From: Clostridiales bacterium
Lineage (GTDB): Bacteria; Bacillota; Clostridia; Christensenellales; Pumilibacteraceae
Direction: 5' to 3'
NCBI GenBank assembly: GCA_031255775.1
Contig: JAIRRW010000015.1
Coordinates: 1 to 55,274, forward strand
Length of the DNA stretch: 55,274 bases
Shown here: positions 7,073 to 39,485 of the stretch, one piece after another
Numbering within the stretch: the first letter of the stretch is position 1
Layout: each line of letters starts with the position of its first letter
Program-made: the position numbers and the translations under genes
Notes under the pieces: generated by a model
Told to the model about the DNA's origin: nothing
Database searches by the model: none
What the model saw: the letters and a program-made list of their open reading frames with translations, nothing else

Positions 7073-7591
7073 TCAGTGTTTTTGGGGCGGGTCGGAAAAA
7101 GGATCGTTGTGGGGTGTGCCGTTGTGGGGCGTAGCGTTGCGGGGGCGGTAGACATAGGGGCCATAGCGGCAATCCCAGTCGTCTTTTTTGCCCGCCATGA
7201 CGATCACATAGATGAGGCCGGGCCAAAAGTACAGAAAAAATAGCAGGATCGCCAGCCAGGCGGTCGTCTTTGGGCGCGGCGGAATATACCCGGGCGGCGG
7301 ATAGGGATGGGGTATGCCGTCGTACGAATACCGTCCCTGACCGCCGTCGTGATAGGCGTCTTGCCCGGAAAAGGGCGGCGGGTCGAACGAAGGATCTTGC
7401 CCGGAAAAGGGCGGCGGGTCGAACGAAGGGTCTTGCCCGGGAAAACGGGGGTTATCCCCCGCGGTTTGGCCGTCGGCCAAATCCCCGGCGTCATGATAGG
7501 TGCCGCAGAGCTGGCAAAAACCGCCCCGTTTTGTGTCGTCCAGCCGGATATCGGCACCGCACCCGGCGCATTTTGCCGAAATAAAAGCCAT
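7073..7591 (-). CDS. Zinc-ribbon, single-span membrane protein with proline-rich repeats
   Basis: 172 residues, family not recognised. The N-terminus has two CxxC pairs (C8/C11 and C26/C29), a zinc-ribbon like those of bacterial zinc_ribbon_2 proteins. A Gly/Asp/Pro-rich linker follows in which GQDPSFDPPPFS occurs twice in tandem and begins a third time. One hydrophobic segment (about residues 107-132) is followed by a short polar tail. The start ATG at 7591 has GGAGGGA at a normal distance. It lies 23 nt downstream of the ABC exporter pair and is probably co-transcribed with it, but nothing visible ties it functionally to transport. Confidence 0.75.
   Translation of the reverse strand: MAFISAKCAGCGADIRLDDTKRGGFCQLCGTYHDAGDLADGQTAGDNPRFPGQDPSFDPPPFSGQDPSFDPPPFSGQDAYHDGGQGRYSYDGIPHPYPPPGYIPPRPKTTAWLAILLFFLYFWPGLIYVIVMAGKKDDWDCRYGPYVYRPRNATPHNGTPHNDPFSDPPQKH
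7361..7446. repeat. In-gene tandem repeat, about 36 bp units
   Basis: Two nearly identical 36-base units plus partial flanks encode the repeated GQDPSFDPPPFS segment of the zinc-ribbon protein. Near-identity at DNA level points to recent tandem duplication, or to a length-variable linker. Confidence 0.75.
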
Positions 7592-7614
7592 GCTCGATCC
7601 CTCCTTACGGCCGT

Positions 7615-9507
7615 TTATACGACCTCTCTCAATTTTTCGATTTCCGCTGCGGCGGCGGGCTGCGGCACGGGCTGCGGCGCGGGCTGCGCGGCCGGGTCCT
7701 TGGCCAGTTCTTTATGCCCGGACATGACCAGCTTATAATAATATCCCCGCTTTTCCATCAATTGCGCGTGTGTGCCCGCCTCGGCGATGCCCTTATTGGC
7801 GATGTAAAAGATGCAGTCGGATTTTTGGATGGTGGACAGCCGGTGGGCGATGACAAAGCTGGTGCGCCCGGCCAGAATGACGTCCAGTGCCTCCTTGATC
7901 AGCGCCTCGGTATGCGTGTCGATCGACGCCGTCGCCTCGTCCAAAATGAGGATTTTGGGGTCGGTCAGGATGACGCGCGCAAACGAAATGAGCTGACGCT
8001 CGCCGGTGGAGAGCTTGGCGCCCTGCTCGATGGTTTCGGTATAATAGCCGTCGGGCAGGCTTTCGATAAAGGCGTCGGCGTGGACGCGCCGCGCGGCCTC
8101 GATACACGCCTCGTCCGTCGCGTCGGGCTTTCCGTATCTGATATTTTCGATGATGGTGCCCGAAAAAATAAAGCTGTCCTGCATCATGACGCCCACCTGC
8201 TTGCGAAGCGAATACAGCGTCACCCCGGCGATGTCCTGTCCGTCGATCAGTATGCGTCCGGCGTTGAGGTCGTAAAACCGGGACAGCAGGTTGACGACCG
8301 TAGACTTGCCCGCGCCGGTCGGGCCGACAAGCGCGATCGACCTGCCCGCCGGTATCTCGAAGCTGACGTCCTCCAGGATCATGCGGCTGTTGTCGTAGCT
8401 GAAATAGACGTGGTCGAACAGGACGTTTCCTTCGACCGGCAAAAGCTCTTCCGCGCCGTCACGGTCCTTGACGGTGGGCTCGGTCTCGATGATGTCAAAG
8501 ACGCTCTCCAGGTTGGAGGTGGCGCGGGACAGCTGCTGAAAAATTGACGTAATCTCGTTTAAGGGGCCGGATATCATGCCCATGTACGAGATAAAGCCGA
8601 TAACCTTTCCCAGCGTCAGACTGCCGATCCCCAGCGTGCCGGTCGCCATAAACAAAACGACGACATACACGACGGCCAGGCCGATATAGAAAAAGCCGTC
8701 CATGACGGGCATATGCAGCTCGTTGACGCGAATGACCTTATCCCAGCTCTTGCGCACCTCGTCGTTGAGCTCGGAGGATATCGCCGTGTTTTTGTCGATG
8801 CGGTTGAACGCCTTGACGACGCCGTGCCCCTGAATATTTTCGGCGATAAAGGCGGTGCGGTTAGAACGCTTGTTGCGAAAGACCCTGTGGCGGCGGGTGA
8901 GCACGGTGCGAAGCAGCATGACGACAAAGGACATCGGGACGACGGCGGCAAGGATGATCAGCGCCAGCCGGAAATCGATGACAAACAGCCAGATGAGAAT
9001 GATGACAATGCGGAGCATGTCAACGATGAGGAGCACAAAGGAGTTGGCAAACACGTCCGCCATCTCGTCGAGATAGGAGGTGAGCCGCGCCAAAATCTTG
9101 CCGTTGGGTCGGTTGTCGAAGTAGTCGAAGGCGAATTTTTGGAGGCGTTCGAAGGCCTTAAAACGCATGTCGTGCACGATGCTGTGCCCGGTTTTTGTCA
9201 TAAACAGCGTGCGGAAATAGGTAAAAACGGTATCCGAATAGACGGCGACCGCGACCAGTCCGACGATGACGACCCCAAGGGCAAGCGCGCTTAGACCCAG
9301 CCCGCCCTTTCCCGTCGCCACATAGTCGAGGATAAAGGTATTGAGCATGGGCGGCAGGAGCGCGACAAAGCTCATCACCGCCATTAAAACGGTCATGGTG
9401 ACGACGGTTTTTTTATAGGGCTTGACGTACCACAGTACCTTGCGCAGGGACGACTTGTTAAACTTGTACTTGATCGCCTCGTCCTCGTTGTATCGGTTGC
9501 GTGCCAT
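7615..9507 (-). CDS. Heterodimeric ABC exporter, subunit with catalytic Walker B Glu
   Basis: 630 residues: N-terminal six-helix ABC exporter membrane domain (to about 330), then a nucleotide-binding domain. Motifs: Walker A GPTGAGKST, signature LSTGE (weaker than the canonical LSGGQ), Walker B ILILDEATASID with the catalytic Glu, H-loop IAHRLST. The C-terminal extension is rich in Pro/Gln/Ala. It starts 1 nt after the stop of the partner gene and its ribosome binding site lies inside that gene, implying translational coupling and 1:1 production. With its partner it forms one canonical and one degenerate ATP site, as in TM287/288, LmrCD and BmrCD. Likely exports drugs, lipids or peptides; the substrate is unknown. 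Confidence 0.92.
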   Translation of the reverse strand: MARNRYNEDEAIKYKFNKSSLRKVLWYVKPYKKTVVTMTVLMAVMSFVALLPPMLNTFILDYVATGKGGLGLSALALGVVIVGLVAVAVYSDTVFTYFRTLFMTKTGHSIVHDMRFKAFERLQKFAFDYFDNRPNGKILARLTSYLDEMADVFANSFVLLIVDMLRIVIILIWLFVIDFRLALIILAAVVPMSFVVMLLRTVLTRRHRVFRNKRSNRTAFIAENIQGHGVVKAFNRIDKNTAISSELNDEVRKSWDKVIRVNELHMPVMDGFFYIGLAVVYVVVLFMATGTLGIGSLTLGKVIGFISYMGMISGPLNEITSIFQQLSRATSNLESVFDIIETEPTVKDRDGAEELLPVEGNVLFDHVYFSYDNSRMILEDVSFEIPAGRSIALVGPTGAGKSTVVNLLSRFYDLNAGRILIDGQDIAGVTLYSLRKQVGVMMQDSFIFSGTIIENIRYGKPDATDEACIEAARRVHADAFIESLPDGYYTETIEQGAKLSTGERQLISFARVILTDPKILILDEATASIDTHTEALIKEALDVILAGRTSFVIAHRLSTIQKSDCIFYIANKGIAEAGTHAQLMEKRGYYYKLVMSGHKELAKDPAAQPAPQPVPQPAAAAEIEKLREVV

Positions 9508-37065: not shown

Positions 37066-37185
37066 TGTTTCGCACCTTGATCATTTGATATTTTGGCGCC
37101 GGTTTTGACCCGGCCACTCTGCTATTGTACCACCGCGCCCGATTTTAGTCAACGCGGGCGGCGCACTTTAGCGGATATTTATTTT

Positions 37186-37372
37186 TAGGTCGTGTTTACA
37201 GGTCTTTTATTAGACCTGTTCTAAAACCAATCGTGAATGGATCAACGAGGATATATTTCGTCTGCCGAGGAAAAGGTTCTTTTTGGTAGCGGCGCTACCA
37301 AAAACGGTTCTTTGACGACAGCAGACGGAATATAGGCCGTTTAGCCGTCGCGATTGGTTGCAAGAACAGGTC
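37186..37372. repeat. Long palindromic element, family B, full-length copy 2
   Basis: Begins TAGGTCGTGTTT; arms of ~80 nt pair imperfectly. Matching blocks include AGACCTGTTCT, ACCAATCG, TATATT and CGTCTGC, with a central GTAGCGGCGCTACC. Same plan as the element at 13001-13166. No ORF. It ends right beside the stop codon of the DUF4435 gene, filling the 309-nt gap between that gene and the B-box protein gene. Confidence 0.78.
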
Positions 37373-37374
37373 TT

Positions 37375-38217
37375 TCATACCAGTATCAAGTTGTGCGCCG
37401 CCGCGTAGCTTTTGAGCGCCTTGTACAGCTTGGTTTTTTTGAAGGACGCGCGCGAATAGGACAGGCGGAGGGCTGCGGAGATCACCTTTTCGTTGAGGCG
37501 TTTTTTGACGTTGTTGCTGGCGCTTTCGGTACAGTATACGCAAAACGCCTCGACAAAATCGTGCCCGTTTGTCAGGTATAGGTACTCCCTTAGGTCGTAT
37601 GTATCGGTAAACTGCGCGATGTGCGCCGCCCGAAGCCCGTCGATTGGGTTGTGGCGGTTGTAGCGGTTGACAAACTCGACCGCCTCGGCCGAATCCGCCG
37701 TGCGGCGCGGGGACACGACCGCCGAGAGATCGGTCTCGCTGACCTTGACGCCCCATTTGCCCAGCGCCGAGCATTTGCGGATCACGCTGATATAGTACAG
37801 GCTCTCGAAAACGCGCAGGCGGAGCGCGGCGGGCTCCAGCTTGCCGCGGTAATGATTGGTGGACAGCTTGTCAAAGGTTTCGTCGTCGGACACCATCATC
37901 ATTTCGGCGCAAGAGTAATCGCAATAAAAAATCTTGTCGTGCCGCTTGACACGCTGATAGTCGCGGTCGCGCACCGCGATGACCCGGGGCGTGTTGGAAA
38001 AGTACTGCGGGATCAGGCTGTCAATGGAGGAGCTGGCGCCGTAGGCCTTGATCAGCGTCACGTTGCTTTTGACCAAAAACTTGAACAGCTTGACGTCGTC
38101 CTCCCCCTCCAGCAGGAGGACGACCCGCTTTTTCTCGACGTCGGCGGACAAGAGCAGCTTGATCTCGGAGACGGTGTTGTCCTCTCTTAGGCAGGTCAGA
38201 ATGGAGTTAGTCCTCAT
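37375..38217 (-). CDS. DUF4435/TOPRIM-like protein, AriB candidate
   Basis: 280 residues. TOPRIM signatures: LLLEGEDDVKLF (E37) after a beta strand, and DxD in AVRDRDY (D84, D86). This is the arrangement of DUF4435 proteins, including AriB, the nuclease partner of PARIS anti-phage systems. It overlaps the preceding AAA ATPase gene by 11 nt, in the ariA-ariB order. Function inferred: nuclease released or activated on phage sensing. The neighbouring family B palindrome marks the locus boundary. Confidence 0.75.
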   Translation of the reverse strand: MRTNSILTCLREDNTVSEIKLLLSADVEKKRVVLLLEGEDDVKLFKFLVKSNVTLIKAYGASSSIDSLIPQYFSNTPRVIAVRDRDYQRVKRHDKIFYCDYSCAEMMMVSDDETFDKLSTNHYRGKLEPAALRLRVFESLYYISVIRKCSALGKWGVKVSETDLSAVVSPRRTADSAEAVEFVNRYNRHNPIDGLRAAHIAQFTDTYDLREYLYLTNGHDFVEAFCVYCTESASNNVKKRLNEKVISAALRLSYSRASFKKTKLYKALKSYAAAHNLILV

Positions 38218-39430
38218 ACATCTCCCCCAAGTCCACCTGAAGCTCCCAATTGCCGGTCAAAACCTGGGGCGAATGCGTCGCGATGATGATGCCGGTCTGA
38301 TTTTTCAACGCCGCCAAAATGCGCTTTAGGTCGCCCACCAGCTCCAGCTGCCAGGCGATGTGGAGAGAAATCTCGGGCTCGTCGATCAGGAGCATCGACC
38401 GATCCTCCGACTCGAAAACAAGCCGGTAATAAAAGATGATGATCTGCTGCTCGCCGGAGGAGAGCGCGGACAGCGGCAGGCGCATGACGCCGGTCTTGAG
38501 GTCGGTGACAAACAGGCCCTCGCGCCGGGAGACGAGCAGCCGCTTGAATTTCAGCTTTTCGTTGATAAGGCCGGTAAACGTATCCAGCCGATCCAGCAGC
38601 GGCTCGAAAACGGCCAGCTTTTTCAATTGATCCTCGGCGTAAAGCCCCAGTGCCGCCGCGTACCTCTCGTGATAGCGCGCGGGCTCCCGGTCCGTTTTGA
38701 TAAAGCCGTAATTTTTGAGACGCGCCCGCAGTCCCGCCACCCGCCGCATCGCGGCCTCAAACCCGGCGGCGCTCACCCCTTTTTCGACCGCGCAGAGGCG
38801 TTCGGGATAGGTTTCGTCCAGCGCCTCGGCGGCCTCGGTGTAGGCAAGCAGGGTCTCGTCGATCCGATTGTTCAGCTTTTCGGGGATCTCCCCGACGGTT
38901 TTGACGACTTGCCTGCGGTCACGCCCCGACTCCTCCTCGGTCAAAAGCCGCTGGTCGCGGATAAACTGAACCGCGCCGAGCTCGGCGGCCGCCTCTTGGT
39001 ACGCCGCCTTGATCAGCTCGATTTTTTTCCCGAGCTCGGCGGTCTGTCCGGCGCTCAGCTCCTCGCCCCGGTCGCCGTAGGCCGCGCGGACGCCGCGGAC
39101 AAAGCCGGACGCCGCGCCCGGCTGATGCAGGCGGATATTTTTGTAGCTTTCGGCCTCCACGCCCTCGATGCCGACCTTTCCCACGGTGAGGGAGGTTTCG
39201 GTCTTTTTGAGCTCGAAACGCTTTTTATCGGCAAAGGTCAGCGTAAACGCGTCAAACGGGACGCGCAAAAGCCCGTAGACGTCGCCCGCGGCGACGCTGT
39301 TGATCATCCCCAGGATCGTGGACTTGCCAAATCCGTTGGGGCCGGTCAGGATGGTGATACCGCCCTCCTTGAGCTCAAACGCGTAGTCAAACGTCCCAAA
39401 CAGTCCTTTTACCTCGACGGACTTTAGCAT
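38207..39430 (-). CDS. AAA ATPase (AAA_15/OLD-like), AriA candidate
   Basis: 407 residues from the ATG at 39430 (AAGGAGG upstream). ABC/RecF-like ATPase: Walker A GPNGFGKST, a long coiled-coil middle (about 130-310), signature LSSGEQQ, Walker B SMLLIDEPEISLH, H-loop ATHSPQ. Coupled to a DUF4435/TOPRIM protein, the pair resembles PARIS (AriA plus AriB). OLD or Gabija-type systems carry ATPase and TOPRIM on one chain, which is not the case here. Role inferred: sensor and scaffold that holds the nuclease partner. Confidence 0.78.
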   Translation of the reverse strand: MLKSVEVKGLFGTFDYAFELKEGGITILTGPNGFGKSTILGMINSVAAGDVYGLLRVPFDAFTLTFADKKRFELKKTETSLTVGKVGIEGVEAESYKNIRLHQPGAASGFVRGVRAAYGDRGEELSAGQTAELGKKIELIKAAYQEAAAELGAVQFIRDQRLLTEEESGRDRRQVVKTVGEIPEKLNNRIDETLLAYTEAAEALDETYPERLCAVEKGVSAAGFEAAMRRVAGLRARLKNYGFIKTDREPARYHERYAAALGLYAEDQLKKLAVFEPLLDRLDTFTGLINEKLKFKRLLVSRREGLFVTDLKTGVMRLPLSALSSGEQQIIIFYYRLVFESEDRSMLLIDEPEISLHIAWQLELVGDLKRILAALKNQTGIIIATHSPQVLTGNWELQVDLGEMYED

Positions 39431-39485
39431 ATCGGCCTCCTTAAAAATAGAGAGTGGGCAAATCGACCCACTATCTGCCACTCCG

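Follow-up and report, generated by a model that had tools for sequence, protein, structure and literature searches.

A two-gene ATPase-TOPRIM locus in a Clostridiales genome is very probably a distant branch of the PARIS defence systems

The locus studied here raises the question whether two overlapping genes, lying among housekeeping genes of a Clostridiales bacterium, encode an anti-phage system of the PARIS type. In characterised PARIS an oligomer of the ATPase AriA restrains the nuclease AriB until a phage anti-restriction protein frees it, and the freed AriB dimer then cleaves host tRNA, which halts translation (PMC12409363, PMC9122126, PMC11455837). The window, that is the whole stretch of 55,274 nucleotides that was analysed, comes from a genome of 1.7 Mb in 143 contigs. 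The first gene of the pair (38207..39430, minus strand) encodes an AriA-like ATPase of the ABC/OLD family with 407 aa, the second (37375..38217, minus strand) an AriB-like TOPRIM protein of 280 aa, a divergent relative of the DUF4435 proteins. According to the gene coordinates the two overlap by 11 nt (ATGAGGACTAA, 38207..38217, minus strand), so that the ariA stop and the ariB start are coupled. A first-pass annotation had correctly described this overlap; it had further recognised the gene order and domain pair of AriA/AriB and thought a divergent PARIS clade plausible. Our results lead to the same view, namely that the pair is very probably a PARIS-type system and forms a divergent two-gene branch of it. 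PARIS as such is already known, and the locus extends this known family.

ariA starts with an ATG, immediately preceded by the ribosome-binding site AAGGAGG. Between this start and the stop of the upstream gene (39486) lies a terminator-like hairpin (39453..39472, minus strand), which may divide the ariAB pair from that gene; as a prediction it is weak, since 3.5 such sites would be expected by chance alone and 3 were found. The neighbourhood consists of housekeeping genes (GlmS, carbamoyl-phosphate synthase, a glycine-transporter/UPF0126 gene, ParA and a phosphoesterase), and an Rfam scan of the window gave no match. Both genes can be regarded as real, because four other Clostridia genomes have homologous genes (27-50% identity) that stand in the same order and likewise overlap.

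The motifs of the ATPase are intact, and those named in the first-pass annotation are confirmed: Walker A (GPNGFGKST, residues 30-38), the LSSGEQQ signature (323-329) and Walker B (LLIDEPEISLH, 347-357). The H-loop ATHSPQ occupies residues 384-389, and the protein ends 18 residues later. An AriA-type ATPase of PARIS is expected to carry AAA_15 or AAA_21 above the Pfam cut-off, and here AAA_21 reaches 65.8 bits (cut-off 27) and AAA_15 58.2 bits (cut-off 32.1). In the PADLOC search that had been suggested for both proteins AriA ranks first among 142 matches of the ATPase (2.1e-27), with PtuA at 1.1e-19. The best sequence match in the PDB is likewise AriA of PARIS (8ux9/8v45, 6.7e-16), and a profile search of the same database returned AriA with 3.4e-22 and the runner-up with 2.6e-10.

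In a tree of 27 ATPases, the deep forks of which are poorly supported, the window ATPase falls into a clade of five Clostridia-type sequences (support 100/99), every one of which adjoins a gene homologous to that of the 280-aa protein. Closest to this clade stand ATPases from gammaproteobacterial plasmids that are partnered with DUF4435 proteins (support 80/85), and two long plasmid matches of the ATPase (93-98% coverage) are each followed directly by a gene annotated as DUF4435. The plasmid systems of Rouxiella (NZ_CP060593) and Salmonella (NZ_CP110658) have the same gene order, an ATPase 27-28% identical to that of the window across 93-99% of its length, and a partner which has the GHD, the TOPRIM and the R251/F259 residues in common with the window protein; they differ in that their partners are annotated as DUF4435, while the window clade is missed by that model. 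Septu and retron PtuA-PtuB systems possess a similar ABC ATPase core, but PtuB is an HNH nuclease, whereas the window partner has the TOPRIM/AriB fold and no HNH nuclease accompanies the ATPase. The HNH-partnered PtuA sequences stand elsewhere in the tree, outside the supported clade of the window ATPase.

For the partner, the designation as a DUF4435/TOPRIM protein in the first-pass annotation is borne out by profile-profile comparison and by fold, but not by a direct Pfam match. DUF4435 (PF14491) was not found on the 280-aa protein at E 0.1, nor on the partners of the relatives L008, L009 and L010 (E 1) and L023 (E 0.01), nor in any of 61 genomes including that of the window; NCBIfam gave no match to the protein either, and its AriB score in PADLOC is marginal (16 bits, E 0.0025). 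The partner therefore stays below the rule used to detect PARIS (DUF4435 PF14491 >= 27 bits, PMC9122126). This rule is a search threshold and not a biological feature, and the underlying homology is present: when the partner clade, consisting of the protein and four relatives, was compared by hhalign with DUF4435 proteins, represented by AriB-like proteins from seven plasmids and one Clostridia genome, the match reached a probability of 99.1% (E 5.9e-19, 243 columns), with 0.1% for an unrelated protein as negative control.

PDB sequence searches with the AriB-like proteins and their profiles did not find AriB, and therefore the link to AriB was made by fold. An AlphaFold2 model of the partner built from nine sequences has a pLDDT of 86.3 and a pTM of 0.85; an earlier one, built from three sequences, reached a poor pLDDT of 53 and was set aside. 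The sole significant Foldseek matches of the model are AriB in the PARIS complexes 8v46 and 8ux9, while a structure search of BFVD gave no significant match. VIA aligns the model with AriB 8ux9_A at Z 15.4 (rmsd 3.9 A, 247 residues) and with AriB 8v46_D at Z 14.9, and the match extends beyond the TOPRIM core over the C-terminal helical part. Compared with the PARIS complexes (PDB 8ux9, 8v45-8v49), the window likewise has a small two-gene unit in which an ABC/OLD-type ATPase stands beside a TOPRIM nuclease that is encoded separately and shares the AriB fold, but the partner is only 10-13% identical to AriB by structure. Its identity to AriB-like proteins outside its own clade is 16-19%.

Across this distance E37, G38, D41, D84, D86, E105, G218-H219-D220, R251 and F259 are invariant in all 14 AriB-like proteins. 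Among them are the acidic residues typical of TOPRIM domains, as in PARIS: the glutamate of the first strand (E37), the DxD pair (D84 and D86) and the glutamate for the second metal (E105). E37 and D84/D86 had been named in the first-pass annotation. These four residues are predicted to be catalytic, with E37 as a candidate counterpart of AriB E26. Unlike in most of the set, the lysine of a G-K motif just before the short helix that comes after the second strand, present in 12 of the 14 proteins, is replaced by alanine in the window protein (A61) and in that of L008, which is a further difference from PARIS. In AriB, K60 and K64 on a small helix grip the anticodon loop (PMC12409363). Because of this replacement RNA recognition may differ in the window protein and in L008, and the change in this motif, close to the helix presumed to bind RNA, could help to reveal which AriB residues choose the tRNA.

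Based on these similarities the pair most likely consists of an ATPase sensor and a TOPRIM tRNase. The oligomer, the sequestration, the trigger, the cleavage of tRNA and the role in defence are carried over from characterised PARIS. By this analogy the AriA-like ATPase would oligomerise, bind the AriB-like TOPRIM protein and keep it silent; a phage protein, possibly an acidic anti-restriction protein mimicking DNA, would bind the ATPase, whereupon the TOPRIM protein would be released and dimerise. The dimer would then cleave the tRNAs of the host, using E37, D84, D86 and E105 for two-metal catalysis, translation would stop and the infection would abort. That the nuclease cuts tRNA appears probable.

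The target could also be DNA, if the pair were a two-gene OLD/Gabija-like or other ATPase-TOPRIM conflict system in which the ATPase activates a TOPRIM DNase. AriB, RNase M5 and OLD have a common two-metal TOPRIM chemistry (PMC12409363), the loss of the G-K lysine leaves the choice of substrate wide, and TOPRIM domains of OLD proteins are indeed the next structural matches of the partner model (VIA Z 5.0-7.0). The best of these covers 158 residues at Z 7.0, far below the Z of 15.4 over 247 residues obtained with AriB. OLD and Gabija GajA resemble the window pair in combining an ABC ATPase with TOPRIM chemistry, but in them the TOPRIM domain is fused to the ATPase (PMC12839542, PMC12409363), C-terminally in Gabija and class 1 OLD, whereas in the window it is encoded by a separate gene with the GHD motif of DUF4435 proteins. 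We therefore consider a DNase improbable and prefer the PARIS-type reading. Within the latter, the loss of the G-K lysine in the window protein and L008, the divergence below detection and an ATPase without its middle part in L008 would fit a Clostridia clade that differs in function from other PARIS systems, with another RNA target and a trigger other than Ocr; we regard this as possible but rather unlikely.

Relatives of the partner were found by whole-genome search. The one from the genome's own taxonomic family is 50% identical to it, two from other families reach 35% and 32%, and that of L023 27%; the nearest named organisms that carry the pair are uncultured Clostridia and Candidatus Alloclostridium. 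Occurrence of the clade is rare and patchy: a sample of 396 genomes of the order contains it four times, in four genera, and within the family two of 74 genomes possess it. The ATPase gene comes first in L008, L009, L010, L023 and L004. The reverse order, with the DUF4435 gene preceding the ATPase gene, was observed in L019 and L020 from the same phylum. The distances of the ATPases correlate with those of the nucleases (Mantel rho 0.56, 0/5000 permutations), as expected for genes working together; together with the pairs in the relatives this means that the two adjacent genes are inherited together, as in PARIS.

In the nearest relative, L008, the overlap has the same length of 11 nt (8001-8011). 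Its ATPase (7184-8011) comprises 275 aa counted from the conserved start, about 130 middle residues fewer than the ATPase of the window, and its AriB partner is of full length. This protein is either a naturally minimal or a decayed AriA; as a naturally shortened form it could help to locate the regions of AriA that recognise the phage.

Two different genomes, L009 (246-3595) and L010 (1-3420), have a block of about 3.3 kb in common, which is first 98% and then 91% identical, contains a sigma-70 region 4 gene and the ariAB pair, and ends 7 nt beyond the ariB stop codon, with different flanks past that point. This common block indicates horizontal transfer and is a candidate for a small mobile unit. 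Relatives of the 280-aa partner were not found in phage and plasmid records, nor were relatives of it or of the L004 partner found in viral contigs. An empty site of the pair could not be shown because no more than five of 60 relatives have the Gly_transporter/UPF0126 gene that flanks it (32-41% identity).

The patchy occurrence, and the presence of a 91% identical block in two different contexts, would also suit a toxin-antitoxin or mobile-element stabilisation module without any response to phages, in which the ATPase is a mere antitoxin of the nuclease, and one commentary calls PARIS TA-like (PMC11455837). In the PARIS systems that have been tested, however, deletion of either gene is non-toxic and the pair protects from phage (PMC9122126), and the proteins of the window clade resemble those systems, so that such a module seems very improbable to us. 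That the ATPase is a RecF/SMC-type repair protein with an unrelated neighbour, as generic P-loop similarity (ABC_tran 32.4 bits, SMC_N 18.1 bits) might suggest and as the first-pass annotation had named as the finding that would speak against it, is hardly credible, since SMC_N stays under its cut-off, AriA heads the matches in both PADLOC and the PDB, and a partner with the AriB fold recurs beside the same ATPase in four other genomes.

With the PARIS-type reading preferred, the locus also bears on the frequency of these systems. AriB partners evidently exist that the Pfam DUF4435 model overlooks. A survey that used this model found PARIS in 5.2% of genomes (PMC9122126), and because the AriB of the window clade escapes it this value is probably a lower bound.

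The ariB stop codon is immediately followed by an imperfect palindrome of 162 bp (37212..37373, no strand assigned), a dispersed MITE-like repeat able to form a long hairpin (RNA MFE -86.6 kcal/mol, z -9.7, for 37180-37380). The mobile-looking palindrome of the first-pass annotation is hence real, but it is a separate repeat and gives no evidence that the pair itself is mobile. The genome holds 13 near-full-length copies of it, this one included, with 92-100% identity, plus many fragments; in 60 relatives there is no full copy and a single match of 43 bp in one of them. Inspection of a few copies showed additional tip sequences (ACAGGTCT or GACCTGTTCT) close outside the repeat ends and no evident target-site duplication. 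With 13 copies across the genome the palindrome was ruled out as a component of the defence system; it is a MITE-like repeat specific to this lineage that neighbours the pair, and the case for mobility of the pair rests on the patchy occurrence and the block common to L009 and L010.

Elsewhere in the same genome, on contig C139 (L056, 327-3165), a gene for an N6-methyltransferase of 635 aa overlaps a gene for a protein of 316 aa, whose translation looks like a specificity subunit. This is likely a type I-like restriction-modification locus. With at least one N6-methyltransferase gene in the genome that stands beside an S-subunit-like gene, a first-line restriction which PARIS could back up is plausible.
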